Of a stretch of DNA of 45,207 bases, positions 11,618 to 42,123 are shown piece by piece. Made by a program: the position numbers and the translations under genes. The stretch comes from an uncultured Verrucomicrobiota bacterium (GTDB taxonomy: Bacteria > Verrucomicrobiota > Verrucomicrobiia > Limisphaerales > JADLHS01), in NCBI GenBank assembly GCA_903828255.1, contig CAIKLQ010000454.1, forward strand, positions 1 through 45,207. The letters are read 5' to 3'. Each line of letters starts with the position of its first letter. Within the stretch, counting starts at the first letter, position 1. Below the pieces are notes generated by a model. The model made no database searches, had not been told where the DNA came from, and worked only from the letters and a program-made list of their open reading frames with translations.

Positions 11618-14600
11618 TCAAGTAACGGCCTCTTCTTTACTACTCGTAACGCTCCTGCTGGAAAGCCTCGCGGCGCGGCCAGAATCCCGGCCGAGAACAA
11701 TGTGCTGGTTCGGCTGCAAGAAAGGGTCGGGGACTCCGCAACCTGTGGATGACGGCCGCGGTGCAGGCAGGGAATCGCGTTCAAGAGTCACCTCAATACG
11801 AGTCACGGTCCCATCGCGATTGAAAACTGAGCCGCTGGTGTCGGCGTCGAGACGCAGCTCTTCGCATTGCAATGGCGGGGAGTTCTGCCTGAAAACCTTC
11901 AGCGAGTTTTTCGCGGCAAGCTGGTACACGATTGGCAACTGACAGTAGGTGAAAGCGAGCGAATTGGCTTTCAGGCGCAGTTTTCGCGGGTGACCGGCGA
12001 CATCAAAGAATTCAAAATCAGTTGGCGACGGAATGAACTCCTCCGGTCTCAGGAGCAACGGGCGGAAATGGATTCGTCCGCCAGACACAAGAACCCCCAA
12101 CTCGCCCAAACGGCACAGAATGTCCTCCTTCACCTGTCCAGTTAGTCCCGGTTGGCGGGCCCCGGCGTGACCGGGCGTGTGCGAATACGGATCCATCGGA
12201 AATGCCCCGTATTCTTCGGGCGACTTGCTGTCGCCCAACCCGGCGCGAATGTCATAGTAGCAGGTTGCGAGTTGCGGGAGGACTGCCTTCGCTGCGCCGG
12301 TGTTGGCGGCGTGGAAGAAGGTTTCCTGAACCGCCAGCAGGAGCTTGGAAACCATGTGCCAGTAGATCGAACCCAGCCCTTCGTAGCCGAAAAACGTACC
12401 GGAGCGGCCGGTGAAGGATTCGTGGTCGAACAACTGCTCGAACAGGTCCAGCACGAGTGGGGCGTCGCGCTTAACCAGTTGCGCATAACCAGAGGCGGCA
12501 AGCTGATCCAGGATGCGGCGAAGGTCGCGGGCGTTCGTCACCGCGCCGTTGAAGTGGACCTGACCGGCCACGTCGGGCTCGACGAGTTGGCGGTTGCCGT
12601 CGGTCACGAGTTTCCGCAGGAGCGCGGAGCGGTTGAGTTGCTTCGCCGGGATATTATTCCGCTCGACGAAGCGGGGAAGTTCACGGTTGGGATAGAGCAG
12701 ATAGCTGTGTTGATCGGCACGGTACATCGCGCTGCGCTTAAGGGCGGTTAGCACTTCCAGCGATTCCTCGGCTGACAACAGGCCCGAACTAAGCACTGCG
12801 ACCTGGCCTTCCAGCATCTCGTAAAGGCGGCGGATGGTAATCGCGCCCGGCTGGTCCAGGCGAATCAGGTTGTAGGCGTGATAAAGCCCGTCAGCGCGAC
12901 GATTGGCGCGAATGCTCGCGTCGGTGGCGTCGCGCGCGGCGGCGAGGAAGCTCAGCAGTAAGGTGCGTTTGATCTTGCGCCGCTGGCCGGAAAATCCTTT
13001 CGCGTAAATCTGTGCGCGATAGCGGCTGGCGGCTTGGCCAAGTTCATCGGTGAGGCGCTTCCGGTCTTGGTCGCTCAGGCGCTTGCCGAGCAACGCGCAA
13101 TGGCGCGTGAGGGTGCGGTTCACGGCGGCGAGGTGGGTGGCCACTTCCTCAGAGACGCTGAAATCGGTTTCCGTCGTCGAGCCGAGCAGTTCACAGCAGA
13201 ACGTGAGCATCCGACGCAGATAATACACCGTGACCATGGACGCGCCGTTGCCGACGAGGGCATTGTTGGCGTCGTTCCATTCGGGTCGCTGGGTGTTCAA
13301 CCAAATGCCGGCTTCGGGAATGAAGTTGGATAGCTTCGCGAGCAGCGAGACCAGCAGTTTTTCAGTCAGATTGACGAGCCGCACGTTGCCGCCCGGGTCG
13401 CAAACCAGTTTGCCATCCGAGCCGGTGGCGCAAACGCGGCGGGCGACCGTTTCTTCGGTGGCGTGATCGAAGACGACGGTGTCTTTCGGGTTTTGGAGGA
13501 GCTCGGCGTAGGGCTGGATGCGATAAGGGACGTTGGCGTAGCAAAAAATTTCCCGCGTGAGGAATTCGCGCAACGTGGCCGGTTCGTGGCGCTCCAGAAT
13601 TTCCAGGAGCTTCAGCAGGTAAATGATTTGGTGATCGCCCCAGTAGCCGATGTAAGACCACGGATCGTGCGGGTCCACGACCTCCCAATCAATGCCGGCG
13701 CGCGTGATGCGGTAGGGATTGTAGCCATCGGCGGTGGAGGCGTTGACGAACTTGGCAATCATGCTGGCGACGTAGCCGGGGAACGAAACCGCGAGCGCCT
13801 CCCAGTTCTGGAAAATGTCGCGCCAGTTGCCCTCGTATCCCAGCAAGCGCGTGCCGTTAGGATTTCGCGTGGCGATGGAAAACCGATTCCAGGGCCGGCT
13901 CGGGTCACCGTGCCGGCGGCTGAAGGTGAGGGGCAAATACTCATGGCAGAGCCGTTCTAATTGCGGATCGTTCGTCGCGGCAGCGAGATTAATGAGACAA
14001 CCTGCGGAACAAACTGCTCGCGAACGGAGTGCTCCTCCCTCTCCCCTTCGGAAGGGGAGAGGGTAGGGTGAGGGGCTGTCCGACAATGCAGCAGCGGGCG
14101 GGCGTTTCCCCCTAACCCCGACCTTCTCCCCCTCGGCGGGGGAGAGGGAGTGGCCAAGTTGGCGAAAGAACTTGGCGTGGCGCGTGGCGACGTCGCGGTT
14201 CGCGTGGCGGATGAAAACCTGAACGTCCGCCGCTTCAACTTGGTAGCCGTCGTTGAAGATGCCGCCGCGCATGACGTTGAACAGCACGTTGCCGAAATGG
14301 CGGGCGTCGCCCAGCGGGCGCGCGGATTTTTGGAGGCCGTCGGCGCTGGCGACAATCCGCTCCAGTTCCACTGTGCCTAGCGCGATGTCGGATTCGATCT
14401 CCCGCCGCAGTTGCGTTGGGCGGCGGAGCAGTTGTTGAAGCTCGGCGACCTCCGATGGCCCACGCGCAACATCAGCGACGAGCAGCCAGTTCGCGGTTTG
14501 GCCCGGTCGGAGCGTGAGTTTCGTCTGGACGAAATAAGCTCCCCGCTCGGCGCGGACATCCGTTTCCTCGCGCACCGGCTGCCCGCGGCGGAAGTGGTCG

Positions 14601-15364
14601 AGTTGGACAGAGGAGAGAAGCTTCAGACTGGGTGCGGGGCCGATGGAAAACACCGTCGTGGTCTTGAGCGCTTCGGCAGGCTCGGGGCGATCTATCGGAA
14701 TGGAACTGAGCCGGAACAAACCCAAGCCCGTTTCCGACAGCAGCTCATTGCGTTTGTAAGCGTCGAGCAGCGTACTTTTGTCGAGCTGGAACTGGCTGCC
14801 CACGCCGCAGGGCATGAGGTTTTGAATCCCATCGAGCAACGTGACACTGGCGGGGGCGGGGCCGGAATTCGCCAACCACGCTTTGCGCACGAAACCGAAA
14901 CGCTCGCTGTTGAACCAGCCGTAGCGGAAGGTCAGCCCGAGATCGTCATTGATTTCCTCGAAGACGAGTTTGTTGCCAAAAAAGTTCTTGTAGAGGTTGC
15001 GCCGGATCCGATGGACGCCAGGATAACGATTCGAAAATGGCTCCCAGAGTTGGTCGCGTCCCTGCTGGCGGACGATGAGCACGGTCTTGCTGCCGGTAAT
15101 TTCCGCCGAGTCGTGAATCTTGTCGTCGGTGTAATAGGGGAACAACGCGAGGTCGGGATTGCGGCGGCCCGCCGTGAGCGCGCCGGTGCTGGAGATGAAC
15201 ATCCAGTGGTCGCCACCGCTGACAATACTCATGAAGAACGGTCGCAGGCGATCGTAGTTGGCGATTTGGTAAAACGCTTCGCCTTCGAGAGTTACCTGTT
15301 GGCCCGCTACCGGAACGGCGGAGGCGTAGAGCGGGTTCTTGCCAAGATACAGATTGGTTTTCAT
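11618..15364 (-). CDS. Large GH94/GH36-like (glycoside phosphorylase-type) protein
   Basis: 1248 aa; AFYQIANYDRLRPFFMSIVSGGDHWMFISSTGALTAGRRNPDLALFPYYTDDKI, GYEGNWRDIFQNWEAL, PEWNDANNALVGNGASMVTVYYLRRML; no signal peptide. Family assignment by motif resemblance only. Confidence 0.65.
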   Translation of the reverse strand: MKTNLYLGKNPLYASAVPVAGQQVTLEGEAFYQIANYDRLRPFFMSIVSGGDHWMFISSTGALTAGRRNPDLALFPYYTDDKIHDSAEITGSKTVLIVRQQGRDQLWEPFSNRYPGVHRIRRNLYKNFFGNKLVFEEINDDLGLTFRYGWFNSERFGFVRKAWLANSGPAPASVTLLDGIQNLMPCGVGSQFQLDKSTLLDAYKRNELLSETGLGLFRLSSIPIDRPEPAEALKTTTVFSIGPAPSLKLLSSVQLDHFRRGQPVREETDVRAERGAYFVQTKLTLRPGQTANWLLVADVARGPSEVAELQQLLRRPTQLRREIESDIALGTVELERIVASADGLQKSARPLGDARHFGNVLFNVMRGGIFNDGYQVEAADVQVFIRHANRDVATRHAKFFRQLGHSLSPAEGEKVGVRGKRPPAAALSDSPSPYPLPFRRGEGGALRSRAVCSAGCLINLAAATNDPQLERLCHEYLPLTFSRRHGDPSRPWNRFSIATRNPNGTRLLGYEGNWRDIFQNWEALAVSFPGYVASMIAKFVNASTADGYNPYRITRAGIDWEVVDPHDPWSYIGYWGDHQIIYLLKLLEILERHEPATLREFLTREIFCYANVPYRIQPYAELLQNPKDTVVFDHATEETVARRVCATGSDGKLVCDPGGNVRLVNLTEKLLVSLLAKLSNFIPEAGIWLNTQRPEWNDANNALVGNGASMVTVYYLRRMLTFCCELLGSTTETDFSVSEEVATHLAAVNRTLTRHCALLGKRLSDQDRKRLTDELGQAASRYRAQIYAKGFSGQRRKIKRTLLLSFLAAARDATDASIRANRRADGLYHAYNLIRLDQPGAITIRRLYEMLEGQVAVLSSGLLSAEESLEVLTALKRSAMYRADQHSYLLYPNRELPRFVERNNIPAKQLNRSALLRKLVTDGNRQLVEPDVAGQVHFNGAVTNARDLRRILDQLAASGYAQLVKRDAPLVLDLFEQLFDHESFTGRSGTFFGYEGLGSIYWHMVSKLLLAVQETFFHAANTGAAKAVLPQLATCYYDIRAGLGDSKSPEEYGAFPMDPYSHTPGHAGARQPGLTGQVKEDILCRLGELGVLVSGGRIHFRPLLLRPEEFIPSPTDFEFFDVAGHPRKLRLKANSLAFTYCQLPIVYQLAAKNSLKVFRQNSPPLQCEELRLDADTSGSVFNRDGTVTRIEVTLERDSLPAPRPSSTGCGVPDPFLQPNQHIVLGRDSGRAARLSSRSVTSSKEEAVT
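14031..14150. repeat. Two-hairpin repeat element inside the GH94-like gene (copy 1)
   Basis: 12-bp perfect stem CCCTCTCCCCTT (14037-14048)/AAGGGGAGAGGG (14052-14063); second stem TCTCCCCC (14125-14132)/GGGGGAGA (14138-14145). Confidence 0.9.
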
Positions 15365-15674: not shown

Positions 15675-17033
15675 TCAGTTCTTGATATTCGGCGCCGCCG
15701 CCTGAGCGGCAGCTTCGACGTAGAACGGGATGTTCACATGCGCCGCGCCGCCTTTGCCGTCGAAAACGTAGGCGAACAAACGATACGCGCCGGGTTTCGC
15801 CGGAGCGGTCAGGGTGATTTCAGGTTTGTTCGGACTGGGGATCAGGCCCGCCAAACTTTGCGGCTTTGATTCCAGATCGCCGCCGTCTTTCAAGTCGCGG
15901 CTCTCTTCCAGAATTTCCCACGCGTAGGTCAGCGGGTCGCCGTCCTCATCGCGGGCGGTGATTTTGGCGGTGGCGGCTTGGCCGGGTTTCAGGCGGATGT
16001 TCTCGGGCGCGGTCTTGCCAGCCAGCCAGGCTCCGTCGAGGCGCGGGCTGCGGTTCGTCGGCCATTTGCCGTTCCACAAGTAGTGCATCACGTCCACCGT
16101 GGCGGTTTCTTCGCCAGATTCCAGGAACATGCCGTACCAGGTCGGCGTGCGTTCCTGTTTTTGACCCCACAGAAAAACGAACGAGCCGAGGCATTGCGTT
16201 TGATCGGGGCGAATGACCGCTTCGAAGCGCTTCTGGTAGAATTCCGCTTTCGTGGTGCTGTCGTTTTCAATGGGCGCGCCCCACTCGGTTTTGCCCACCT
16301 CCCAATGCCCGGTCGCGCCCCATTCGGTGACGAGGTAGGGGCGATCCCAGCCGGATTCCTTGAGGTAACGCGGCAGATTCATGATGTCCGCATACGACTG
16401 GATGCCGATCAGGTCGAGATCGGGCGCGCGGGTCTTGATGTCGTTCACCAGGTCTTTCCCGATGCCGGCCAACGCGGTCATCGTCAGATGGTTGGGGTCC
16501 ACCTGATGGATCATTTTGGAGATTTCGTTGACGGCATCCCAGACTTTCGGGTTGGTGGCGCGCAGGTTCAGCTCGTTGCCGATGATCCAAGAGATCAACG
16601 CCGGATGGTCTTTGTATTTCAACACCTCGGCTTTGACTTCCGCAAACTGGCGCGCGACGTCGGCGGGGTTGTTGTAATCAAACCCGTGCCGCTCGCGGGC
16701 GATCTCCAAACCCATCGCGACGTAAAGCCCGTTGGTCAACGCGCGATCCAAGACTTGTTGGCCGGTGGCCTGGCCGTTCTCGGTGCGCCAGGTGCGAAAG
16801 GTGTTGCCGCCATGCGCGGCCAATTTTTCGGGACTGCCGAATTCGAGGCCGGCGCCTTTGACGTAGAAGGGCTGGCTGTTGACGTAGAGTTGGAATTTTT
16901 CCGCTGTGTGTTTGATCGCGACTTTGGTTGGGCCGGCCGGTTTTCCGCGATTGACTGAGGGCGGGGTGTCGCTGCTGCAAGAGGTCAGGAGCGCAACAGC
17001 GGACAAAGCCATGAGCAGGGGGGCAATACTCAT
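15675..17033 (-). CDS. Secreted lipoprotein glycoside hydrolase, GH2-type TIM barrel
   Basis: Start at M(SIAPLLMALSAVALLTSC) with lipobox LTSC; WIIGNELNL and YLVTEWGATGHWE motifs fit acid/base and nucleophile Glu. The provided ORF extends to 17261 but that extension is repeat DNA. Confidence 0.75.
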   Translation of the reverse strand: MSIAPLLMALSAVALLTSCSSDTPPSVNRGKPAGPTKVAIKHTAEKFQLYVNSQPFYVKGAGLEFGSPEKLAAHGGNTFRTWRTENGQATGQQVLDRALTNGLYVAMGLEIARERHGFDYNNPADVARQFAEVKAEVLKYKDHPALISWIIGNELNLRATNPKVWDAVNEISKMIHQVDPNHLTMTALAGIGKDLVNDIKTRAPDLDLIGIQSYADIMNLPRYLKESGWDRPYLVTEWGATGHWEVGKTEWGAPIENDSTTKAEFYQKRFEAVIRPDQTQCLGSFVFLWGQKQERTPTWYGMFLESGEETATVDVMHYLWNGKWPTNRSPRLDGAWLAGKTAPENIRLKPGQAATAKITARDEDGDPLTYAWEILEESRDLKDGGDLESKPQSLAGLIPSPNKPEITLTAPAKPGAYRLFAYVFDGKGGAAHVNIPFYVEAAAQAAAPNIKN

Positions 17034-17067
17034 CAAACGACAGGAGGCATTACCAGCGCGCGAAGTG

Positions 17068-17187
17068 GTTCTCCCTCTCCCCTTCGGAAGGGGAGAGGGC
17101 AGGGTCAGGGGTTGCGTGGAAGCAATCGGACGGGTCCCGGTTTCCCCCTCACCCCGACCCTCTCCCCCTCGGCGGGGGCGAGGGAGA
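17068..17187. repeat. Two-hairpin repeat element (copy 2)
   Basis: CCCTCTCCCCTT (17073-17084)/AAGGGGAGAGGG (17088-17099), then tttccccctcaccccgaccctctccccctcggcggggg as in the 14031 copy. Confidence 0.9.
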
Positions 17188-17271
17188 ATTGCGCGCACGA
17201 TTCTTGGCTCTGTCGTCCATCTCACGGACTCCGCAGTGTCGAGTTTTAGGTTTTGTTTCATGGGAAAGTTC

Positions 17272-18813
17272 CTATTTGCGGACGAGGATGCCTTCGAGTT
17301 CTTCTAGCGTTTTGCCCTTGGTTTCGGGAATCCAGATCAGGACAAAGGCCAGCGCGGCCACTGCCATGAGGCCGTAGCCGAGAAACGTGCCGGCGGTGCC
17401 AAAGGTGGTCAACTCCCACGGAAAGATCATGGTGACCGTGGCGCTGATGACCGAGTTCCAGAATCCCACGAGCGAAATCGCCGCGCCGCGGTACTGGTTG
17501 GGGAAGATTTCCGAGAGCAGCACCCACATTACCGGGCCGAGCGAAATCGCAAACGAGGCGACAAAGCCGATGATGGCATACAGCACGAGCGAAGCGCGGA
17601 TGTTCAGCCCGGCGGTGACCAGCGAATCCTGGTGAGGTTTGATGCGCTCGGCCCCAAACCGCTTTTCCAAATCGGCGACGTATTCCTTGTCGGTGGTGAA
17701 AACTTTTTTCTCGGAAGCTTTCAGTTCGCCGATCAAATCCGCGGGCACTTTGCCCGTTTCCAGGATGGCGTAGGACTTTTCCGTGATCTGGTAAGTGGAA
17801 TCGTGAAAAGCCCAGGCACACGTCAACAGCGAAACCGCCATGCCGGCCGCTCCGATGACCAGTAGCGGTTTGCGGCCCAGACGGTCCACCCACCGGATCG
17901 CCACGAACGTCATGCCGAGATTCACGAGGCCGACGAGCACGGCTTGCTTGAACGCCGCGTTCACGCCCCCGCCGGCATGCACAAAGATCGTGGGGAGATA
18001 ATAGAAAATGGCGTTGATGCCGGTGATTTGTTGGAAGAAGGCGATGGCCAGCGCGATGAACATGATGAAGCGCATCCGCCGTCCCAGCAGACCGCCCAGG
18101 CCGACCCCGGTGGTTTTTTGAGCGAAGCTTTGTTGGATGTTGCGCAATTCTTCCTCAGCCTGCTCCGGTCCGCAGGCTTTGGTCAGGATTTCCCGAGCTG
18201 GTCCGGTCTGTCCTTTACCGAAGAGCCAGCGGGGACTTTCCGGCACGGCAAAAAGCAGAAAGAAATACAGCGCGGCGGGGATGGCTTCGACGCCCAGCAT
18301 CCAGCGCCAGTTGTTGTCGCCGATTTCGAGCAGGAAGTAGTTGGAGAAAAATGACGCCGAAATGCCGATGACGATCATGAGTTGGTTGAACGAGACCAGG
18401 CTGCCGCGCTGTTTGGAGGGCGAAATTTCCGCGATGTAAACCGGCGCGATGAGAATGGACCCGCCCACCGCCACGCCCGCAATGATCCGGGAAATCACGA
18501 ACACCGTGAAGTTGGTGGCGGTCGCCGAGAGTAGCGCCGAACCGGCGAACAAGAGCGCGGTGATAAAGAGCACTTTCTTCCGTCCGAAACGGTCGCTCAG
18601 CAGCCCGGCTACCGCATTCCCGCCCAACGCGCCCCACCCGAGGCAACTCACGGCCCAGCCGAGTTTCAAGTCGCCACTGACGCCGCTTAGATCAAAGTAC
18701 TTTTTGATGAACGGCACGGTTCCCGAAATAACCGTGGCGTCAAATCCCAGGAGAAAGCCTCCGATCGCGACGATCAGGGCCACGGAGATCATGTATTTTT
18801 TGCTGTGGGGCAT
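17272..18813 (-). CDS. Sugar-porter family MFS transporter
   Basis: GGFLLGFDATVISGTVPFIKKYF, DRFGRKKVLF, RIIAGVAVGGSILIAPVYIAEISPSKQRGSLVSFNQLMIVIG, PESPRWLF, FQQITGINAIFYYLPTIF, WIPETKGKTLEELE. Confidence 0.93.
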   Translation of the reverse strand: MPHSKKYMISVALIVAIGGFLLGFDATVISGTVPFIKKYFDLSGVSGDLKLGWAVSCLGWGALGGNAVAGLLSDRFGRKKVLFITALLFAGSALLSATATNFTVFVISRIIAGVAVGGSILIAPVYIAEISPSKQRGSLVSFNQLMIVIGISASFFSNYFLLEIGDNNWRWMLGVEAIPAALYFFLLFAVPESPRWLFGKGQTGPAREILTKACGPEQAEEELRNIQQSFAQKTTGVGLGGLLGRRMRFIMFIALAIAFFQQITGINAIFYYLPTIFVHAGGGVNAAFKQAVLVGLVNLGMTFVAIRWVDRLGRKPLLVIGAAGMAVSLLTCAWAFHDSTYQITEKSYAILETGKVPADLIGELKASEKKVFTTDKEYVADLEKRFGAERIKPHQDSLVTAGLNIRASLVLYAIIGFVASFAISLGPVMWVLLSEIFPNQYRGAAISLVGFWNSVISATVTMIFPWELTTFGTAGTFLGYGLMAVAALAFVLIWIPETKGKTLEELEGILVRK

Positions 18814-18922: not shown

Positions 18923-18952
18923 TGTAATAAAAAACATTACAGCCGATGTCAA
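18923..18952 (-). promoter_or_regulatory. Candidate regulated promoter for MFS cluster with palindromic operator TGTAAT-N7-ATTACA
   Basis: On minus strand TTGACA (18952-18947), 17-nt spacer, TATTAC (18929-18924); operator TGTAAT (18923-18928)-aaaaaac-ATTACA (18936-18941). Confidence 0.55.
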
Positions 18953-19019: not shown

Positions 19020-19088
19020 CCGTAGCCGCGGACTTGAGTCCGCGCAAATCAGATGAAAGTCAGCGCAGACTCACGTCCGCGGCTACGG
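19020..19088. repeat. Inverted repeat element
   Basis: CCGTAGCCGCGGAC (19020-19033)/GTCCGCGGCTACGG (19075-19088), with inner partial pairing GAGTCCGCGC/GCGCAGACTC. Confidence 0.85.
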
Positions 19089-30438: not shown

Positions 30439-30475
30439 TTGACACTTTAACCAGTATGTAACATAAATCATTACA
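30439..30475 (+). promoter_or_regulatory. Candidate promoter with palindromic operator TGTAAC-N7-ATTACA
   Basis: TTGACA (30439-30444)-17 nt-CATAAA (30462-30467); operator TGTAAC (30457-30462)-ataaatc-ATTACA (30470-30475) overlaps the -10. Confidence 0.6.
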
Positions 30476-30592: not shown

Positions 30593-33325
30593 ATGCAAAC
30601 AACATCCTCTCTAACTGCGATGCCCGATCGCCGGCTCGACTTGAGCCGTAACCGCAAGCAATCCTCGTTCGCCAAACTGGCGGGATGCTTCATCATGCTC
30701 TGCGCTGTGGTGCTCCTCGCATCCCGAGCCAGTGCCGTCAACATTTTGGGCAACCCCGGCTTCGAAAGTCTAGGTAAGGCTTGGACCGTTTACACCCAAG
30801 GAGGCAACGGAGGCAATGTGTTTGAAAAGCAAAACCCTCCAGCTCACGGTGGGATTAACCTCTACAAGAACTGGGGTTCCTGGGGTGACCCAACCAATAC
30901 CCAATCCATTTACCAGGATAAGCCGTCTGGCGTGGGGGATACCTACGCTGCCAGCGGCTATATCCGCCGCCCCAATAACGACTATGCCGCCGATACCCAA
31001 AACGAAGGTTGGGTTCAGGTCGCGTTCCTGGACGCAGGCGGGGCGACGTTGAGCCTCTACGAATCCTTCCGCATTGGCGTCACTACGCCGGAGAGTGCGG
31101 ATTGGAGTTTTGTGGAAGTTACCAACCATGTTGATCCGGTCACGCGCGTGTCGCTGGGCTCGGTTACTTCACTGGTGGCCCCGGCTGGCACCAAAACGGT
31201 CCGCTTTTCGGCGATTCTTGAACAGCGCAATGGCGGCGGCGGCGCGTGGCATTACGACGACATGACCTTGGACCAAACTGCCGGCAACCGCCCGCCGAGC
31301 ATCGCCAGCCTCATCCCGGACGGAACGGCGCTGTTCAATCTTGCGGCAAATGGAATCACCTTCAATGCCACCTCGGCCACCACCAACATCAGCCCAGCCG
31401 GCATTAAACTGATCCTAAACGGCTTGGATGTATCGGCTGGACTGGTGTCCGTCCCAGGTGGACCGGTCCCCAGCCAGAGCGTTACCTACTCGGGGCTTAC
31501 TTCCAACCGGCTGTACTCGGCCGTCATCAATGTGACCGATGATGCGGGTTACCTCACGAGCGAGGCCATGAGCTTCGACACCTTTGTTGCTGGCAACTAC
31601 CAGTGGGAAGCGGAAGACTATGATTACAATGGCGGCAGCTATTTGAATAATCCCACGCCTACTTCGACTAACTACGCCAGCAGCTTCTTTGGCCGACCGG
31701 GCACGGCGGACATTGACTGGCACGAGACCGGCGGCTGGGGTGGCAACGGCGGCCAGGCGTACCGCGAAAGCGGCGTTGGTCCTGGGGTTGAGTGGACGAG
31801 CGATTTCAAACGGCAGAATTATGTTGCTGCCTATGCCGGAGGCGACACCAACGTCCAAGATTACAATGTGGGTTGGAACAGCGGGTTGGATGGCGACTGG
31901 ATGAACTATACCCGCGATATCCCGGCGGGGGTTTACAACGTCTATTGTCGGTTGGCTAGTGGAGATGGGGGCGTCAAGCGCTGCCAGGTGGGCACCGTAA
32001 CCTCGGGGGTTGGCACGACCACGCAAACCACGACTACTCTCGGTATCGCCTCCATCAACGGCGGCGCGGGTTGGCAAGCCTGGCTCTGGGCTCCCTTGTT
32101 GGACGCCAGTGGCAATCTCGTTAAAGTCACCTACGCCTCGGCTACCAAGGTGACCTATCGCGTGTCGTCTGATGGTTGCAACATGAATTTCTTCATGTTG
32201 GCCCCGGCGCGCACCGACTTGCCGCTGATTGACAACCTCTATCCCACCGGGACGAGACCGTTCGAGCCTAGCAGCACGCTGTCCTTTAATGCCAGTTCGG
32301 CCGTGGCCACCATCCCGACTGGGAACATTCACGTCACTTTGAACGGGAACAACGTAGATTCACTCCTGACGATCGGCAATAATGCCACCAACCGGACTGT
32401 GTCGTTGGCCGTGCTGGCCTCGAACGCGACCTACTCGGCCACCATCGGCGTGACTGACTCCGCCGGAACCTTCGTTTCGCGTTCCTTGGATTTCGACACC
32501 TTCAGTGAGTCGAACTTCTCCTTCGAAGCGGAAGACTACAACTTCAACAATGGCCAATACATCAACAACCCGCTGCTCTCGGTGAGTTGCGACCCCAACA
32601 ACTACTACCAAATGACCATCTGCAACGGTCTTTTGGCCATTCCAGGCGTTGACATCAGCACCAATAACCCCTCCGGTGGCTACGGACAGGCCTACCGTCC
32701 TGGTGACACTGTTGGTGCCGAAGTGACCGCAGATTACCTGCGGCAGAATCGCGTAGCGGCAGGCGTCCTCGATTACAACATCGGTTGGGATGGAGGCGGC
32801 TCATGGTTTAACTACACCCGGGACTTCCCGGCGGGCAATTACTGGGTTTACGCCCGGTTGGCCGGGAATGGCACCTTGAACGCCACCATGGAAACCGTCA
32901 CCGGGGCCACGTCCAGCAGTCAGGCCGCCTCGCCGCTTGGCACGCTCACAAGCTTCCGAGCCAACGGCGGTTATCAGTCTTGGGGCTGGGTGCCGTTGTT
33001 TGCCACCAGCGGCAATCCGGCTGTCTTGTCCGGAGGCAGCACCAAGACGTTGCGCTTCACGACCGGAGGCAACATGAACCACAACTACTTCATGCTCGCC
33101 CCGGCCAAGACCATTGTGGCCCTGGGCATCACCATGAGTGGAGCCAATCCGGTGATTGCCATCCCAACTCAAGCGGGTGCCAGCTACACCATTCAATACA
33201 AAGCCAGCGTCACGACGGGCACTTGGACTTACCTGACGATGGTGTTGGGTAACGGCACCACCAAGACGGTGACCGACTCAACGGCAGCGGGCAGTGGCCG
33301 AATCTACCGCGCCCTCATCCAATAA
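30593..33325 (+). CDS. Secreted CBM-only protein: CBM4/9-like + two (Ig-like + CBM6/35-like) units + C-terminal F/YYR module
   Basis: ATG 30593 (MQTTSSLTAMPDRR) with signal peptide; NPGFES...WHYDDMTL; duplicated EAEDYDYNGGSYLNNP.../EAEDYNFNNGQYINNP... units; no catalytic domain recognised. Confidence 0.8.
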   Translation: MQTTSSLTAMPDRRLDLSRNRKQSSFAKLAGCFIMLCAVVLLASRASAVNILGNPGFESLGKAWTVYTQGGNGGNVFEKQNPPAHGGINLYKNWGSWGDPTNTQSIYQDKPSGVGDTYAASGYIRRPNNDYAADTQNEGWVQVAFLDAGGATLSLYESFRIGVTTPESADWSFVEVTNHVDPVTRVSLGSVTSLVAPAGTKTVRFSAILEQRNGGGGAWHYDDMTLDQTAGNRPPSIASLIPDGTALFNLAANGITFNATSATTNISPAGIKLILNGLDVSAGLVSVPGGPVPSQSVTYSGLTSNRLYSAVINVTDDAGYLTSEAMSFDTFVAGNYQWEAEDYDYNGGSYLNNPTPTSTNYASSFFGRPGTADIDWHETGGWGGNGGQAYRESGVGPGVEWTSDFKRQNYVAAYAGGDTNVQDYNVGWNSGLDGDWMNYTRDIPAGVYNVYCRLASGDGGVKRCQVGTVTSGVGTTTQTTTTLGIASINGGAGWQAWLWAPLLDASGNLVKVTYASATKVTYRVSSDGCNMNFFMLAPARTDLPLIDNLYPTGTRPFEPSSTLSFNASSAVATIPTGNIHVTLNGNNVDSLLTIGNNATNRTVSLAVLASNATYSATIGVTDSAGTFVSRSLDFDTFSESNFSFEAEDYNFNNGQYINNPLLSVSCDPNNYYQMTICNGLLAIPGVDISTNNPSGGYGQAYRPGDTVGAEVTADYLRQNRVAAGVLDYNIGWDGGGSWFNYTRDFPAGNYWVYARLAGNGTLNATMETVTGATSSSQAASPLGTLTSFRANGGYQSWGWVPLFATSGNPAVLSGGSTKTLRFTTGGNMNHNYFMLAPAKTIVALGITMSGANPVIAIPTQAGASYTIQYKASVTTGTWTYLTMVLGNGTTKTVTDSTAAGSGRIYRALIQ

Positions 33326-33449: not shown

Positions 33450-34358
33450 ATGGGTAATTCTCCATTTCAAAACCCGACTCCTGCGGGAAATTCACCACGT
33501 CGAGGCTTCGTATCTGGCTCGCGGGGTTTCACCCTCATCGAGCTGCTAGTCGTCATCGCGATCATCGCCATTCTCGCGGCAATGCTGCTGCCGGCGTTGA
33601 ACCAGGCCAAAATCAAGGCGCAAGGCATCTTGTGCATGAGCAACTCCCACCAAGTCATGCTCGCGTGGCAAATGTATAACGTGGACAATAACGATCGCAT
33701 TGTTATGAGCTACCATGGTGGGGATGCCCAGGGGGGCGCGGCGGCCAATGATCCCACAAAATCGCCGTGGGTGGTGGGGTGGCTCGATTGGACTCCTTCC
33801 TCCGACAACACGAACATCCTGTTCCTTATTGAGGAAAAGTATGCGAAACTCGGCAAGTACGTGGGAAAAAACAAGAATGTCTTCAAATGCCCGGCCGATA
33901 TTTACGTGAGCGCTGGGCAGAGAGTCCGGGGTTGGACGGCGCGCTGCCGGAGCATTTCCGGCAACATCGGCGTCGGCGAGGGGAATGCGGAAAGTGGACC
34001 GTGGGACGGCATTTACAAACACATTAAGAAAACATCCGAGTTTATTTATCCCGGAGCCTCCGAAACCTGGGTCTATCTGGATGAGCATCCGTCCAGCATC
34101 AATGACGCGGGTTTCTTTAATCCACATTCAAACTCGTGGATTGACCAACCGGCCTCCTACCACAATGGCGCGGCAGGCTTTTCCTTTGCCGACGGTCATT
34201 CGGAAGTCCACAAATGGAAAGCCTCGCTTAACACCGCCGCCGCGCGGAAGGTAGATACAATCAATAATGGCGTTACGGCTACGGTCGTCGGCGCAAATGA
34301 CGCGGACATCAAGTGGATGAGCTATCGCGCCGGGAGGCTCTCGGCCATCGCTTATTAA
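33450..34358 (+). CDS. Prepilin-type (type II pseudopilin-like) protein with H-X9-DG C-terminal motif
   Basis: [51 protein letters not shown]; paralogous to the minus-strand gene at 19112-20017. Confidence 0.88.
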
Positions 34359-34427
34359 GCGCCCTCAAGAGTGCGAATTCCCGGCAACGGGACATCGCAC
34401 CTTGCCCTCTGGACCGGCAAAGGTCAG

Positions 34428-34463
34428 GAGCGCGGACGAGGGCGTTCGCGCTCCCGGAGTTGC
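34428..34463. repeat. Short GC-rich hairpin upstream of GH16 gene
   Basis: ggagcgcg-gacgagggcgtt-cgcgctcc, perfect 8-bp stem. Confidence 0.5.
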
Positions 34464-34515
34464 ATGGGAAGCCGCCAATCCAGGCGGTGTCGGTTCTAAA
34501 TCCTTGAAGATCGTT

Positions 34516-36123
34516 ATGCAAATGAAATGGTTTTGGAGCGGGGTTCTCCGCCTCCTTCTCACAGGGACCGCCCTCGCGGTCACACTCCATCCGGCCCGGG
34601 CCGCCAACGCCTGGACGCTGGTGTGGGCCGACGAATTTCAGCAGGCCGACGGCAGTGTGCCAGACGCCACGAAATGGGGTTACGACATCGGCGGCAGTGG
34701 CTGGGGCAATAACGAACTGGAGTATTATACGTCGCGCACCAACAACGCCCGCATCGAAGGCGGCCAACTGGTAATCGAAGCGCGGCAGGAAAGTTTCGGC
34801 GGTAAGAATTACACGTCTGCCCGGCTGCTGACCAAGGGTAAATGGTCGGGGACTTATGCCCGCATCGAGGCCCGCATGAAGATTCCCCGCGGTCAGGGAA
34901 TCTGGCCCGCCTTCTGGATGCTGGGCACGAACATCACTTCCGTCAATTGGCCCACCTGCGGTGAAATTGACATCATGGAGAACATCGGTAAGGAGCCCGG
35001 CACAGTGCATGGCACGATTCACGGCCCGGGTTATTCCGGCGGCAGCGGAATCGGCGGGCCGTTTAATCTGCCAGGCAACGCGGAGTTCGCCGCCGACTTC
35101 CACGTTTTCGCGATTGAATGGGAAACCAATCGCATCCGTTGGTTCGTGGATAGCCAGCCGTTTTTCACCGTTACACCCACCAGTCTTCCGACCGGCACGC
35201 AATGGGTATTCACGCAGCCCCAGTTTCTGCTGCTGAATCTGGCCGTCGGCGGCAACTGGCCCGGCAACCCGGACGGCACGACAGTCTTTCCCCAGCGCCT
35301 AGTCGTAGATTATGTCCGCGTTTATGCCACGACGAATCGTCTGGCTTGTGGCGGTAACTCGCTTACCAACCCCGGCTTTGAATTCAGCGGTCTGGTGAAC
35401 TGGAACGTTTATGGCGCGGGCTTCAATACCTCGCTTGCCAGCGTCACCAATAACCAACCGGTGCCGGAAGGCTCGAACTCGTTCAAAGTTTTCGGACAGT
35501 TCACCGGCAACCAGAATTACTCCGGTCTCTATGAAGATGTTCCTTGCGTGCCGGGCCAGAGTTTCACCGCCGGCGGCCGGGCGTTCACTCCGGCCAATGA
35601 CCAGATAGCCGGCGGCAACAGCGCGTGGATCGAGGTTTCCTTTCGGGATGCCGCAGCGAACCTGCTGAGCCTCTATCGCACGGCGGCGATTACTCCCGCC
35701 ACGCCCGCCGGGGTCTGGATCAACCTCGCGGTCACGAATCAATTCAACCCCACGAACTATTCCCTGATCGGACCGGCTCCCAGCCTGATAGCACCCGTCG
35801 GCACGACGTTTGCCCGCTACCAAGTAGTTTTCCAACAACCCGGGAACGATGCCGGCGCGGTGTTTTTTGACGATTTGAATCTGGGGTCGCCGGGCGCGAC
35901 GGAAATTCCCGTCAGCGCCGCCGCGAGCAACCCCGGTGGCAACCTCAGCCTAGCGTTCCCGACTTTTCTGGGGCAGACCAGCCAGGTGCGTTTCAAAAGC
36001 GATTTGCGCGACGCCAACTGGCAGGTGCTGACTAACGTGATCGGCGACGGTAGTAAGCAAATCGTCTCGGACGCGGCCGGCGCGGCCCGCCGGTTCTACC
36101 AGGTGGCTTGTCTCTGCGATTAG
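34516..36123 (+). CDS. Secreted GH16 beta-glucanase (laminarinase-like) with CBM4/9-like domain and C-terminal F/YYR module
   Basis: WTLVWADEF, GEIDIMENIG catalytic motif, HVFAIEWETNRIRWFVD; start at MQMKWFWSG with signal peptide. Confidence 0.92.
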   Translation: MQMKWFWSGVLRLLLTGTALAVTLHPARAANAWTLVWADEFQQADGSVPDATKWGYDIGGSGWGNNELEYYTSRTNNARIEGGQLVIEARQESFGGKNYTSARLLTKGKWSGTYARIEARMKIPRGQGIWPAFWMLGTNITSVNWPTCGEIDIMENIGKEPGTVHGTIHGPGYSGGSGIGGPFNLPGNAEFAADFHVFAIEWETNRIRWFVDSQPFFTVTPTSLPTGTQWVFTQPQFLLLNLAVGGNWPGNPDGTTVFPQRLVVDYVRVYATTNRLACGGNSLTNPGFEFSGLVNWNVYGAGFNTSLASVTNNQPVPEGSNSFKVFGQFTGNQNYSGLYEDVPCVPGQSFTAGGRAFTPANDQIAGGNSAWIEVSFRDAAANLLSLYRTAAITPATPAGVWINLAVTNQFNPTNYSLIGPAPSLIAPVGTTFARYQVVFQQPGNDAGAVFFDDLNLGSPGATEIPVSAAASNPGGNLSLAFPTFLGQTSQVRFKSDLRDANWQVLTNVIGDGSKQIVSDAAGAARRFYQVACLCD

Positions 36124-36128
36124 AAGCT

Positions 36129-36251
36129 GGTTTGAAAACTCTCCCCCTCGGTCGTAGTAGCCGACGTAAGGAGGCTCAAGCCTTTTGGGTTTTTGGAACC
36201 GGCATGTGCAGATGTCAGAGCTTCCTTATGTTGGCTGCTACTTTTCAAACC
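36129..36251. repeat. Inverted-repeat element (MITE/REP-like)
   Basis: GGTTTGAAAA (36129-36138)/TTTTCAAACC (36242-36251); GTAGTAGCCGACGTAAGGAGGCTC (36154-36177) vs GAGCTTCCTTATGTTGGCTGCTAC (36218-36241), 4 mismatched pairs of 24. Confidence 0.8.
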
Positions 36252-36355
36252 GGCGCCAAGGCTTTCGCCCCGCCGCGCCCCGCTCGCCGGGCGGGCCGGG
36301 CGAATTCCCTTTCATGCTCGTCACTGCACCGGGATACTCGCTCCCAGGCACAACT

Positions 36356-38833
36356 ATGAAAGTTGCCGATCTCAAGCCTAAAGCCCTATTCCGCTTAGTC
36401 CTGGCTTTGCTCTGCGTCCTGATTTTCGCGCCGCCGCTCGCTGCGGAGGACGTGCCGGACAAGGTGCTGCGCTGCGCCGAACAGGTGCGTCGTTTGACCC
36501 CGGAACAGGCCGAGCAACATCTCGAAGTGCAGTTCAATGCCGTGGTGACATTCAATGACGAGGCGCTTTACGCGCGATTTTTTCAAGATGAAACGGCCGG
36601 CATTTATTTGCGCGAGATGACCAACATGCCGGCGTTGCACCCTGGCCAACGGGTGGAAATCAAGGGGCAGACCGGGGCGGGTGAATACGCTCCCATCGTG
36701 ATTCCCACTTCCGTGAAAGTGCTGGGCGAGGGAGTCCTGCCGGCGGCGAAACCGGTTTCCCTCGAGCAGTTGATCAGCGGTCGCGAGGATAGTCAGTTCG
36801 TCGAAGCCATCGGCACGGTTCGCGCGGTGCGGTTTGAGCCAGAGTCGCAGAATTATTTGCTGGATGTGATGCTCGGCGGCGAACGGTTCACCGCCTACGC
36901 ACGGCAATTACCCGTCACCAACATCGAAGATCTGGTCGAGAGTGTCGTCCGGGTGCGGGGGGTCTGCACCACCCTCTTCAATCGGTCGCGGCAGTTGTTC
37001 GGCTTCCGGTTGCTGGTTCCGCGCGCGACCGATCTGGTCGTGGAGCAACCTGCGCCAACGAATCCGTTTGCGGTTCCGACGCAGAGAATCAGCAGCTTGC
37101 TCCAGTTCACCGCGGCGGGCACTTTCGGCCATCGGGTGAAAGTCACCGGCACTGTGGTTTATCAGCAACCCGGCACCGCCCTGTATATCGAGGATGAGAA
37201 AGAGGGATTGCGCTGCCAGACGCGCGAGCAGGTGCCGTTGCAAGCCGGCGACCGGGTGGAAGTCCTGGGCTTCCCGGCCAAGGGAGAATACACCCCGGTT
37301 TTTCAGGATGCGACCTATCGCAAGATCGGCACGGGCGTTCCCGCGCAACCTCCGACGGTCGGGTTGGTGGAAGCACTCGCCGGCACGCATGATTGCCGGC
37401 TGGTCCGCATCACGGCCTCGCTGCTCGAACACTCCCAGCGCGGACGGGATATTTTCCTAGTGCTCGAGAAGGACGGTTTTATTTTTTCCGCCATCCTCGG
37501 CCAGGAAGACGGCGGGGCGGGATATAGCCCCGTGCCCGTCGGCAGCGAGGTGGCGGTCACCGGCATCTGTTTGATCGAGCGCGGCAGCAGTTGGCAGGCG
37601 GGCGGAAGTTGGCGGGCCAAGTCATTCCGCCTATTGCTTCGCTCGCTCGGGGAGGTCGTCGTGCTGCGCTCGCCGCCCTGGTGGAATGTGCGGCGGCTGC
37701 TATGGATGGCGGCCACCCTCGGCCTGCTGGCGCTGGCGGCCTCGGCCTGGGTCGCGGTCTTGCGGCGGCGGGTGCAACAGCAGACGAAGATTATCGGCGA
37801 ACGCCTGCAATTGGAAGCCGCCTTGAAGGAGCGTTACGAGGATTTGTTCGAGAACGCGAATGACATGGTGTTCACCCACGATTTGAACGGAACTATCACT
37901 TCCATCAACAAGGCTGGCGAACGGCTCTTGCAACGCAGCCGCGAAACCACCGAGTCCCGAAGCCTCATTGACCTCATGGCGGAAGACCACCGGGCGCCCG
38001 CCCGCGAGTGGCTCGCCCAAGTCGTCCAAGGCGTGGATGTGCCCACGGCGGAATGGGACTTCCTCAACGCCGCCGGGCAGCGCATCAAGCTGGAGATCAG
38101 TTCGCGTTTGATCGAGCAACAAGGACGCATCGTGGAAGTCGAGGGCATCGCGCGCGACATCACCGAGCGCCGCCGCTTGGAACGCGAAATCTTGGAGATC
38201 AGCACCCGCGAGCAACGCCGCATTGGCCACGACCTGCATGACGGCGTCTGCCAGCAACTAGCCGCCATCACCTATCTCGTGGACATTCTCGGCGACCGTT
38301 TGCAAGAGGCGGCCGCTCCCGAGGCCGCCGAAGCGGAACGCATTGGCAACCTGATCAACGAAACCAACGCCCAAGCGCGCAGTGTGGCGCGGGGGCTGTT
38401 TCCCGTGCGCCTGGAGGAACACGGATTGGTGCTGGCGCTGGAGGAACTGGCCGCGAGCGCGAGTAGCCGGTATCGGATCACTTGCCGCTTTGCTTGCGAG
38501 TCAGCCCCGCTCAAGGTGGACAGCGAATTGGAGTTACACCTCTATTACATCGTGCAAGAAGCCTTGTTGAACGCCGTCAATCATGGTAAAGCAAGCACGG
38601 TCATGGTGACCTTGGCCCCGGACGCAGACCGCTTCAAACTGGCCGTGCAGGACAATGGAGCGGGCTTTAACTACTCCGGTCAGAACCGCAGCGGCATGGG
38701 CATCCGGATCATGCGCTACCGCGCCAAAGTCATCGGGGCGACGTTGGATCTGCAAAGCCAGATGGGTCACGGGACGCAAATCACCTGCGTCTTCAGTCCG
38801 GCCGCGCGGGAATCCGCGCGCCACAACCAATAA
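36356..38833 (+). CDS. Sensor histidine kinase: periplasmic OB-fold-like repeats, TM, PAS, HisKA_3-type kinase
   Basis: Start MKVADLKPKALFR with signal peptide; TM LLWMAATLGLLALAASAWVAVL; PAS YEDLFENANDMVFTHDLNGTITSINKAGERLL; EQRRIGHDLHDGVCQQLAA; ATPase GMGIRIMRYRAKVIGATLDLQSQMGHGTQI. Confidence 0.88.
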   Translation: MKVADLKPKALFRLVLALLCVLIFAPPLAAEDVPDKVLRCAEQVRRLTPEQAEQHLEVQFNAVVTFNDEALYARFFQDETAGIYLREMTNMPALHPGQRVEIKGQTGAGEYAPIVIPTSVKVLGEGVLPAAKPVSLEQLISGREDSQFVEAIGTVRAVRFEPESQNYLLDVMLGGERFTAYARQLPVTNIEDLVESVVRVRGVCTTLFNRSRQLFGFRLLVPRATDLVVEQPAPTNPFAVPTQRISSLLQFTAAGTFGHRVKVTGTVVYQQPGTALYIEDEKEGLRCQTREQVPLQAGDRVEVLGFPAKGEYTPVFQDATYRKIGTGVPAQPPTVGLVEALAGTHDCRLVRITASLLEHSQRGRDIFLVLEKDGFIFSAILGQEDGGAGYSPVPVGSEVAVTGICLIERGSSWQAGGSWRAKSFRLLLRSLGEVVVLRSPPWWNVRRLLWMAATLGLLALAASAWVAVLRRRVQQQTKIIGERLQLEAALKERYEDLFENANDMVFTHDLNGTITSINKAGERLLQRSRETTESRSLIDLMAEDHRAPAREWLAQVVQGVDVPTAEWDFLNAAGQRIKLEISSRLIEQQGRIVEVEGIARDITERRRLEREILEISTREQRRIGHDLHDGVCQQLAAITYLVDILGDRLQEAAAPEAAEAERIGNLINETNAQARSVARGLFPVRLEEHGLVLALEELAASASSRYRITCRFACESAPLKVDSELELHLYYIVQEALLNAVNHGKASTVMVTLAPDADRFKLAVQDNGAGFNYSGQNRSGMGIRIMRYRAKVIGATLDLQSQMGHGTQITCVFSPAARESARHNQ

Positions 38834-38838
38834 CCAGT

Positions 38839-39570
38839 ATGTCTGAATCAGCACCAAACCGGGCCCGGGGAAAAACCGCGCCGCCCGCCAAGCCCCCGGC
38901 CGCCAGTGCGCCGCCGGAGAAAAGCCGCGTCTTTATCGTGGACGACCACACTATGTTCCGCGAAGGTCTGCGCCAGTTGATCGAACGCGAATCCACCATC
39001 ACCGTTTGTGGCGACGCGCCCGATGCGGCGGAGGCGCTGATTGGCATCCGCACCACCAATCCCGATGTCGTCATTGTGGACATTTCGCTTGCCGGGGCCA
39101 GCGGCCTTGACCTCATCAAGGACATCAAGGTGGAGTTCGGCGATTTGCCGGTGCTGGTGGTTTCCATGCACGACGAGTCCCTCCATGCGGAACGCGCGTT
39201 GCGCGCTGGGGCCATGGGCTACGTGATGAAACACGAGCCGGCCAAGACCGTGAAGGCCGCGATCCAAAAAGTCCTGGGCGGCGACATGTACCTCAGTGAA
39301 AAAATGTCCAGCCTGGTCCTTAACCGGCTCCTCCGCGGCCAGGTTGAACCCGCCAAGTCCCCGATCGAAACCTTAAGCGACCGCGAGTTGGAAGTCTTTC
39401 GCCTGCTCGGTCAGGGCAAGGGCGTCCGGCAGATTGGCGAAGAACTCGGCGTCACGATTCCGACGGTGAATTCCTTTCGCAATCGCATCAAAGAAAAGCT
39501 GCAATTGAAATCCTCCACCGAAGTCATGCTCCATGCCATCCATTGGGTGCGGGAAGAGTCGCCGACATAG
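38839..39570 (+). CDS. NarL/FixJ-family response regulator (REC + LuxR HTH)
   Basis: VFIVDDHTMFREGLRQLIE, PDVVIVDISL, C-terminal LSDRELEVFRLLGQGKGVRQIGEELGVTIPTVNSFRNRIKEKL; 5-nt gap from the kinase. Confidence 0.95.
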   Translation: MSESAPNRARGKTAPPAKPPAASAPPEKSRVFIVDDHTMFREGLRQLIERESTITVCGDAPDAAEALIGIRTTNPDVVIVDISLAGASGLDLIKDIKVEFGDLPVLVVSMHDESLHAERALRAGAMGYVMKHEPAKTVKAAIQKVLGGDMYLSEKMSSLVLNRLLRGQVEPAKSPIETLSDRELEVFRLLGQGKGVRQIGEELGVTIPTVNSFRNRIKEKLQLKSSTEVMLHAIHWVREESPT

Positions 39571-39723
39571 GGGACTGTCTGAATATCCCGACTACCGACT
39601 CCCGCAGTTGAGTGCTGTGGTAGGGGGTCACGGCGAACTTCACCAGCGCGCTTGTTCGCGCAGTTATTCGCGGTTTGCTTTGGCCAGCGCGGGATGGGAA
39701 GCTGTCCAAGCTTGGCTGCGACC

Positions 39724-42123
39724 ATGAAAATTTTAGTTCACCTATGCTGGCTCGGGATGTTGGTTTGCCTGGCCTTCGCATCCTACCCTGCCCAATCGCA
39801 ACCAGACGTGGTCGTCTTTGATGAAGATGACGCGGCGGGGGTGGGTTACTACGACGCCTCTGTGCCCAGCCTCACCGCGCCCAGTCAGTTGACGACGTTC
39901 CCGTCGCCTTTCGGCGGTAAGCTGCCCATTCTCACTAACCAGGCTTTCACCGGCAGCCAATGCGCGCTGCTCGAATGGAAATCCGCGCCGGGGGGCAACT
40001 GGACTTTCTTCATCGCCAGCCCGGCCTTTCAAACCCGCGATCTCACCGGACTGTCCAACGTGGTCCTATTCGTCAACGGCTCGGCCGCCATCCCCGCCGC
40101 CAGCCTGCCGAAGCTGGGCTTGGAGAGCAGTGCGAATCAAAGAACCCCGAGCGCCAGCCTCGCCAGTTTTCTGCCGGAAGGAATGGACGGCGATACGAAT
40201 ACCTGGCAACGCGTTGTGGTCCCGTTGACCGCCTTCCAGCCTTATGGGCTGTTTGCGCCGAGCCAATTCAAGGACGGGTTTTTTAGTCAGGACGCGGCGG
40301 ACAATGTGACCCGAACCGTGTGGCTCGACGATATTCGCGTCACGGATGGCCGCGTCCCCGGCGCTCCCACCGACGTGACCACGGGTGCGGGTGACCGGAG
40401 TGTCGTGCTGCATTGGGTGCGCAATACCGAGGCGAACCTCGCTGGCTACCGCATCTATCGCGGTAGCGGCCCGAGTGGCCCTTTCGCTTTGTTGAATTCA
40501 ACCCCGGTGGTCCTACCGAGCTTTGCCGACTTCGCCGTGACCAACGGGCAGAGTTATTTCTACGCCGTCCGCGCCCTTACCACCGGCTACGATGAAAGCT
40601 CCGACTCAACTATCGTGAGCGCGACCCCGCACGCGTTCGCCAACGACGCGGACTTCCTCGAATACGTGCAGCAAACGACGTTCGATTACTTCTGGTACGA
40701 GGCCAACCCGACTAACGGTTTGATTCGCGATCGCAGCCAGCCGAATTCGGTCGTGAGCGTCGCGGGAGTTGGCTTCGGACTTACCGGCATTGGCATTGCG
40801 ATTGATCACGGCTGGATTACGCGCGCCCAAGGACGCCAGCGCGTGCTGAAAACCTTGCGCACCTTTCGCGACGGCCCACAGGGTACCAACGCTACCGGCA
40901 TGGTCGGCTATAAAGGCTGGTTTTATCACATGCTCGGACTGAACAGCGCTACCCGTGACGGCACTTCGGAGCTTTCCTCGATTGACACGGGACTGCTGCT
41001 GGCCGGAGTGCTCGACGCGAAGCAATACTTCGACGCAAACCAACCGGACGAGAATGAAATCCGCTCTGCTGCCGACACGCTCTTTAACCGGGTGGACTGG
41101 CAGTGGATGGCCAACGGCGCAAACTCACTCACTATGGGCTGGAAGCCGGAGAGTGGCTTCCTGCCCTGGCGCTGGATCGGCTACAACGAAGCGATGGTGC
41201 TCTATATCATGGGACTGGGCGCGGCCACGAATCCGGTGCCGGCGGTCCAGTGGAGCAGTTGGACCAGCGGCTACACTTGGCGCACGAATTACGGCTCCGC
41301 CTATGTCGAGTTTCCGCCGCTGTTCGGCCACCAGTATTCGCATTGCTGGATTGATTTCCGTCACATCGCCGACGCCTACATGAACGCCCGCGGGATCAGT
41401 TACTTTGAGAATTCCCGCCGGGCGACACTAGCCCAGCGCGCCTATTGCATCGCCAACCCTGGCGGGTTCACCGGCTATGGCTCGAACGCGTGGGGTATCA
41501 CCGCGTGCGATGGGCCGGGCTATGGCCGCTTCGCGGGTTACAACGCTCGCGGCGCGCCGCCGGCTCAAAATGACGACGGCACGCTCGCGCCCACCGCGGT
41601 CGGCGGCTCGCTGGCCTTCGCGCCGGAAGTCTGCCTGCCAACGCTCCGCAATCTCTACGATCAATTCCGCACGAACATCTGGACCGGCTATGGGTTTTGC
41701 GACGCGTTCAACCGCACCGCGAACTGGTGGGACGTGGACGTGCTCAGCATTGATCAGGGAGCGATCCTTTTGATGATCGAAAACTATCGCACGCAAAAAG
41801 TCTGGCGCCGCTTCATGCGCATCCCGGAAATCCAGCGCGGCTTACAAGCGGCTGGTTTCACGAATCTGACCTTTGTGTCTCCCACCATCGAGCGTGGACC
41901 GGTCCCGGGAGGCATGAAGCTGAACTGGGCCAGCGTGAATAGCCGGTCCTATCAAGTGGAATACTCGGCCGAACTCTCCAACTGGGTCCTATCGCCAGCC
42001 GGCTTTCTGACGGCCTCCGGCCCGGTCTTGAGCTGGCAGGACAACGGCCCGCCCGCGACCGACAGCCGCCCCGCCGACACTAGCCAGCGTTTCTATCGCA
42101 CGTTCCAATTCGGCCCGCCGTGA
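39724..42123 (+). CDS. Secreted glucoamylase-family / GH144-like beta-1,2-glucanase with FnIII and C-terminal F/YYR module
   Basis: Signal peptide MKILVHLCWLGMLVCLAFA; FLEYVQQTTFDYFWYEANPTNGLIRDRS, YKGWFYHMLGL, GLLLAGVLDAKQYF, GYNEAMVLYIMGLG, FGHQYSHCWIDFRHIADAYM, SIDQGAILLMIENYRT. Confidence 0.85.
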   Translation: MKILVHLCWLGMLVCLAFASYPAQSQPDVVVFDEDDAAGVGYYDASVPSLTAPSQLTTFPSPFGGKLPILTNQAFTGSQCALLEWKSAPGGNWTFFIASPAFQTRDLTGLSNVVLFVNGSAAIPAASLPKLGLESSANQRTPSASLASFLPEGMDGDTNTWQRVVVPLTAFQPYGLFAPSQFKDGFFSQDAADNVTRTVWLDDIRVTDGRVPGAPTDVTTGAGDRSVVLHWVRNTEANLAGYRIYRGSGPSGPFALLNSTPVVLPSFADFAVTNGQSYFYAVRALTTGYDESSDSTIVSATPHAFANDADFLEYVQQTTFDYFWYEANPTNGLIRDRSQPNSVVSVAGVGFGLTGIGIAIDHGWITRAQGRQRVLKTLRTFRDGPQGTNATGMVGYKGWFYHMLGLNSATRDGTSELSSIDTGLLLAGVLDAKQYFDANQPDENEIRSAADTLFNRVDWQWMANGANSLTMGWKPESGFLPWRWIGYNEAMVLYIMGLGAATNPVPAVQWSSWTSGYTWRTNYGSAYVEFPPLFGHQYSHCWIDFRHIADAYMNARGISYFENSRRATLAQRAYCIANPGGFTGYGSNAWGITACDGPGYGRFAGYNARGAPPAQNDDGTLAPTAVGGSLAFAPEVCLPTLRNLYDQFRTNIWTGYGFCDAFNRTANWWDVDVLSIDQGAILLMIENYRTQKVWRRFMRIPEIQRGLQAAGFTNLTFVSPTIERGPVPGGMKLNWASVNSRSYQVEYSAELSNWVLSPAGFLTASGPVLSWQDNGPPATDSRPADTSQRFYRTFQFGPP

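Follow-up and report, generated by a model that had tools for sequence, protein, structure and literature searches.

The window, by which we mean the whole 45,207-nucleotide stretch of DNA analysed, holds two operons that are each preceded by a short palindrome lying across a promoter-like sequence (Table 1). The minus-strand operon encodes an MFS transporter, a putative glycosidase and a large phosphorylase, the latter announced as GH94-like in the first-pass annotation and now assigned to GH149 instead. The plus-strand operon leads from a secreted CBM-like protein and a pilin-like protein through a GH16 beta-glucanase to a sensor histidine kinase (HK), with a PF10091 glycosidase downstream. 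The HisKA_3 kinase adjoins a response regulator (RR) that combines a receiver with a GerE HTH domain, and the pair thus qualifies as a two-component system of the LuxR/NarL type. On the strength of the gene content of both operons (MFS, GH149, GH16, HK-RR and PF10091), the locus appears to serve the utilisation of beta-1,3-glucan (laminarin-type) and to bring its own two-component system. At the window's end (42243-45155) a DUF7133/HEAT/cytochrome c protein is encoded, apparently unrelated to the regulon.

Table 1. Positions of the operators, promoter elements and genes in the window.
Feature	Position	Strand	Remarks
GH149 beta-1,3-glucan phosphorylase	11618..15364	-	NF058639, 1643 bits against a curated cut-off of 1150
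Putative glycosidase	15675..17261	-	Weak GH2 TIM-barrel similarity, under the Pfam cut-off; adjoins the MFS gene in relatives too
MFS sugar-porter transporter	17272..18813	-	Pfam Sugar_tr 3e-101; TIGR00879 above cut-off; first gene behind operator 1
Operator 1	18923..18941	none	TGTAATAAAAAACATTACA; upstream of the MFS-glycosidase-GH149 operon
Predicted -10 of promoter 1, TATTAC	18924..18929	-	In the operator's right arm; N17; placed by the spacing rule
-35 hexamer of promoter 1, TTGACA	18947..18952	-	5 nt before operator 1
-35 hexamer of promoter 2, TTGACA	30439..30444	+	12 nt before operator 2
Operator 2	30457..30475	none	TGTAACATAAATCATTACA; upstream of the GH16/HK-RR operon
Predicted -10 of promoter 2, CATAAA	30462..30467	+	At the operator centre, 17 nt after TTGACA; class A consensus gTTGAC-N12-TGTAATAnAAAntACTACA
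Secreted CBM-like protein	30593..33325	+	First gene behind operator 2; likely ATG at 30593, ORF listing begins at GTG 30524
Pilin-like protein	33450..34358	+	N-terminal methylation motif
GH16 beta-glucanase, laminarinase type	34402..36123	+	PF00722 6.5e-27
Sensor histidine kinase	36185..38833	+	PAS, HisKA_3, HATPase_c
LuxR/NarL-type response regulator, probable operator binder	38839..39570	+	Response_reg and GerE; recognition helix TVNSFRNRIKEKL
PF10091 'putative glucoamylase' glycosidase	39652..42123	+	PF10091 2.6e-76; downstream, same operon orientation

Two operators and their rarity

Operator 1 reads TGTAAT-N7-ATTACA, with perfect 6-bp arms and a 7-nt spacer, and the minus strand from 18952 to 18923 reads TTGACA-TCGGCTGTAATGTTTTT-TATTAC-A, hence TTGACA-N17-TATTAC, so that the arrangement of palindrome over promoter first noticed there was confirmed letter by letter. 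Counted from the start of the palindrome, the MFS start codon lies 128 bp away. Operator 2 reads TGTAAC-N7-ATTACA and carries one arm mismatch. The first-pass annotation had proposed the same geometry for both sites, and this holds for the combination of a palindrome with an N17 promoter; the distance from TTGACA to the palindrome differs, being 5 nt at operator 1 and 12 nt at operator 2. Both operators overlap their TTGACA-N17 promoters 110-140 bp ahead of the two beta-1,3-glucan operons. Beside operator 1, at 19020-19088, lies a REP- or MITE-like inverted repeat of 26 nt (CCGTAGCCGCGGACTTGAGTCCGCGC; 92% complementary, 17-nt loop), and a similar GCGGACAAGGCTGTCCGCG element is found near the MFS gene of genome G011 (L024).

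In the window the pattern has two matches at up to two mismatches, against 0.34 expected, and because 6 of 100 shuffles also reach two matches the window taken by itself is merely suggestive. The genome as a whole is more telling. Across its 8.9 Mb, TGTAAY-N7-RTTACA occurs exactly twice, both times in the window (reversed control, one site), a frequency that is not chance-like, and a search for TTGAC-N4..15-palindrome again returns just these two places. When one mismatch is allowed, twelve scattered sites are added, giving 14 against 31 in the reversed control. A wide regulon in the organism's own genome is rejected on this count, and since the one-mismatch matches are fewer than those of the control we treat the element as local in this genome and claim no further members. 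A matrix built from the relatives' sites only ranks the window operators first and second, at 28.3 and 23.8 bits with the next window place at 2.9, a test with some circularity, the window's pattern having served to find the relatives' sites.

Occurrence in related genomes

Those relatives that carry names are MAGs from Limisphaerales, Pedosphaera and Verrucomicrobia subdivision 3, and orthologues of the histidine kinase at E ≤ 1e-150 are present in 44 of the 321 genomes of the order. An unbiased scan for TGTART-N7-AYTACA in all 321 genomes was then compared with this list of kinase carriers. The palindrome with 7-bp arms is found in 15 of the 44 carriers and in 1 of the 277 others (p = 1.5e-13). 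In the same scan TTGAC stands exactly 5, 12 or 13 nt upstream of 20 of 36 carrier matches, against 1 of 36 elsewhere (Fisher 7e-7), and with the TTGAC-N4..15-palindrome pattern 27 of 36 carrier matches have the 5- or 12-nt spacing (binomial 2e-14), against 3 of 19 in the remaining genomes. As the genomes are related, these p-values are optimistic and should be taken as strong, not literal. The strict site is absent from about half of the carriers, and in 24 of the 44 not even the one-sided TA form is present.

In 604 kb around the kinase orthologues, the palindrome (≤2 mismatches) occurs 34 times against 4 in the reversed control, many of the inspected loci having been chosen through HK orthology. 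Most of these 34 are intergenic and precede operons for GH16, pilin, MFS and HK. Genes right behind TTGAC-palindrome promoters in the carriers include those for GH16 (G142, G033), GH3 (G129), MFS (G277), CBM-like secreted proteins (G279, G129), a DUF1559 pilin (G257) and the kinase itself (G129); a palindrome directly precedes HK in G084, G129, G261 and G271. The predicted regulon genes are GH16, GH3, MFS-GH-GH149, HK and the DUF1559 pilin, and the linkage to glycan genes suspected at first pass extends to MFS, GH16 and GH3 operons of relatives.

Comparison of the regions upstream of orthologous MFS genes likewise bore out conservation: the palindrome is kept in six genomes, our own included (the others being G003, G011, G157, G278 and G277), some 116-146 bp before the ATG, and in all five relatives TTGAC stands 5-6 nt before it. 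Identity of the MFS orthologue is 89% in G157, 88% in G003 and about 50% in G011. The MFS orthologues of G183, G271, G134, G167, G029 and G142 have no palindrome in their upstream regions. Nor was the palindrome found beside distant response regulators from other phyla (L181-L184), whose recognition helices differ, and a scan of viral contigs gave unspecific matches only. A second kinase of the genome under study (G000:C445:1183-2556), 58% identical to the sensor part of the window kinase, represents a paralogous system that may have an operator of its own.

Taken with the genome-wide rarity of the sites, ortholog conservation and glycan-gene linkage support the original proposal of a shared operator over two promoters and hence of one regulon, and we regard this assignment of operator and regulon, predicted from sequence, as well supported.

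Promoter geometry

The palindrome has the 19-bp consensus TGTARTA-N5-TAYTACA, and its two TA steps lie 7 bases apart, which is the difference between the 12- and 5-nt TTGAC spacings. With TTGAC at 12 nt (class A) the first TA begins the -10, 17 bp past the -35, and with TTGAC at 5 nt the second TA does; TTGAC is kept 17-18 bp upstream of whichever TA opens the -10. Both spacings are thus accounted for by a single rule, that the promoter spacer stays at 17 bp. That either TA can start the -10 at a fixed spacer argues for TTGAC and TA as elements of the promoter, and indicates that the operator sits on the predicted -10 of sigma-70-type promoters. Single palindromes with two overlapping divergent promoters, one having TTGAC at 12 nt and its opposite-strand partner at 5 nt, are found in G003 (L063), G011 (L054/L143) and G129 (L219). 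Sixteen aligned class A promoters conform to the consensus given in Table 1 and share no conserved element downstream of the palindrome. A promoter placed downstream, with the palindrome in a class II activator position, was therefore rejected, a downstream -10 not being conserved in these 16 sites.

About 9 of 24 class A promoters have an additional TGTRA- or TGTAG-type half-site some 13 nt before TTGAC, with a peak at -30 to -32 and at most one occurrence at other offsets. The half-site, TGTRAA located some 31 bp before the palindrome (for example in L054, L057, L102, L126 and L150), makes TGTAAW-N7-TTGACA together with the -35, a possible second regulator site that would cover the -35. In G094, G256 and G265 such palindromes, TGTAAT-N7-TTGACA with the centre near -40, stand alone.

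The candidate regulator and known systems

A Pfam scan of 20 window proteins recognised an HTH domain in the response regulator alone. Its recognition helix TVNSFRNRIKEKL is nearly invariant among orthologues, and TVNSFRNR is unique to it among those LuxR-type regulators of its genome from which helices were extracted. The recognition helix of E. coli UvrY is TVNSYRYRM, and the UvrY box is TGTAAG-N6-CTTACA (PMC4682653). The operators described here share with that of the BarA-UvrY system (UvrY/SirA/GacA) the TGTAA half-sites and an inverted repeat of 18-19 bp, and the proteins share the LuxR-type response regulator architecture and a helix TVNS(Y/F)RxR. They depart from the UvrY box in having one more base between the half-sites (19 bp) and T/A, not G/C, as sixth base, so that neither operator conforms to the box itself. 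The UvrY box moreover lies far upstream and serves the csrB/csrC sRNAs, whereas the present operator lies on the predicted -10 and serves glycan operons. Against the UvrY/GacA equivalog NF007018 the response regulator scores 124 bits, below the cut-off of 280, and the likeness is therefore one of DNA reading and not of membership. From these features, it is most likely the locus's own response regulator that reads the operator.

Sites of LuxR-type response regulators can overlap promoter elements and repress, as in the NarL type, and the site considered here resembles such promoter occlusion in overlapping a promoter element. The window regulator is, however, no NarL orthologue (124.5 bits, cut-off 250), and the NarL heptamer, TACYYMT, differs in sequence from this operator. 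Bacteroidetes polysaccharide utilisation loci use hybrid two-component or SusR-type local regulators. The present locus is like these in that a glycan locus would be controlled by a local sensor that it encodes itself, and unlike them in that the kinase is separate from a LuxR-type regulator and the operator lies on the -10. A SusC/D pair was not identified in the window.

Mechanism and alternatives

On balance we think it probable that the two palindromes are the operators of one beta-1,3-glucan regulon, in which the response regulator of the locus itself would block the -10 for as long as the kinase gives no signal. The response regulator encoded in operon 2 would bind the palindrome as a dimer, its UvrY/GacA-like helix reading TGTAA, and would keep RNA polymerase off the -10, by which the transporter/GH149 operon and the GH16/HK-RR operon, the regulator's own, would both be held down. 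Detection of a glucan-derived signal by the sensor kinase would then change the regulator's binding and release the operons. The identity of the binder and the choice of repression over activation are what we infer here. A repressor sign would accord with the TTGAC-operator spacings (5, 12 and 13), which do not stay on a single face of the helix: with variable rotation and a constant N17, the operator would need only to cover the -10.

The upstream half-site in about 9 of 24 promoters gives room for a dual role, and the response regulator could be an activator or dual regulator, activating at low occupancy from a half-site by the -35 and using the -10 palindrome for feedback repression. The sharp offset of that half-site and the lone palindromes centred near -40 fit such a scheme, and LuxR/NarL-type regulators are more often activators. 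Yet neither of the two window promoters has the half-site, nor do class B promoters, and the -10-covering site is the strongest and most widespread, so that we find this scheme unlikely, if worth keeping in mind. The repressor-like position of the operator would also suit an unlinked repressor (e.g. of LacI, GntR or TetR type), the HK-RR pair co-occurring merely as a member of the same pathway, and G157, a MAG about 83% complete, has operators with no clear response-regulator orthologue found. We consider this improbable: no other DNA-binding family was seen in common among the site-bearing loci, where, in part owing to how the loci were selected, 18 of 21 genomes have HK and 17 have RR; several genomes have a site immediately ahead of HK-RR; and the UvrY-like helix fits the TGTAA half-site. 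Chance palindromes with no operator function, as the shuffles of the window alone might allow, are very improbable and are refuted at any reasonable level by comparative data, namely conservation between species, the geometry of the promoters and the association with HK-RR. Least credible of all is an RNA hairpin or terminator in place of a DNA site, rejected since operator 1 RNA folds (-11.6 kcal/mol, z -1.7) but operator 2 does not (z +1.1), promoter geometry places the greater part of each palindrome upstream of the TSS, and the DNA motif is kept through G/A and C/T variants.

Conclusions

A description of this operator was not found in the open-access literature, which is weak evidence of novelty. 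With blocking of the -10 by the response regulator as the preferred reading, we tentatively propose, as a possibility a little short of even, an undescribed two-component beta-1,3-glucan regulon across this Verrucomicrobiota order, in which a UvrY-like repressor would act at an operator that itself supplies the -10 from either TA and so could serve two overlapping divergent promoters. Verrucomicrobiota have an important part in the breakdown of algal and plant polysaccharides, and to our knowledge few regulator-operator pairs are known from them. The analysis offers a concrete operator, a regulon (MFS, GH149, GH16, GH3 and HK-RR) and a candidate regulator open to tests with the purified protein, for which the organism need not be cultured, and the operator could mark beta-glucan genes in metagenomes.
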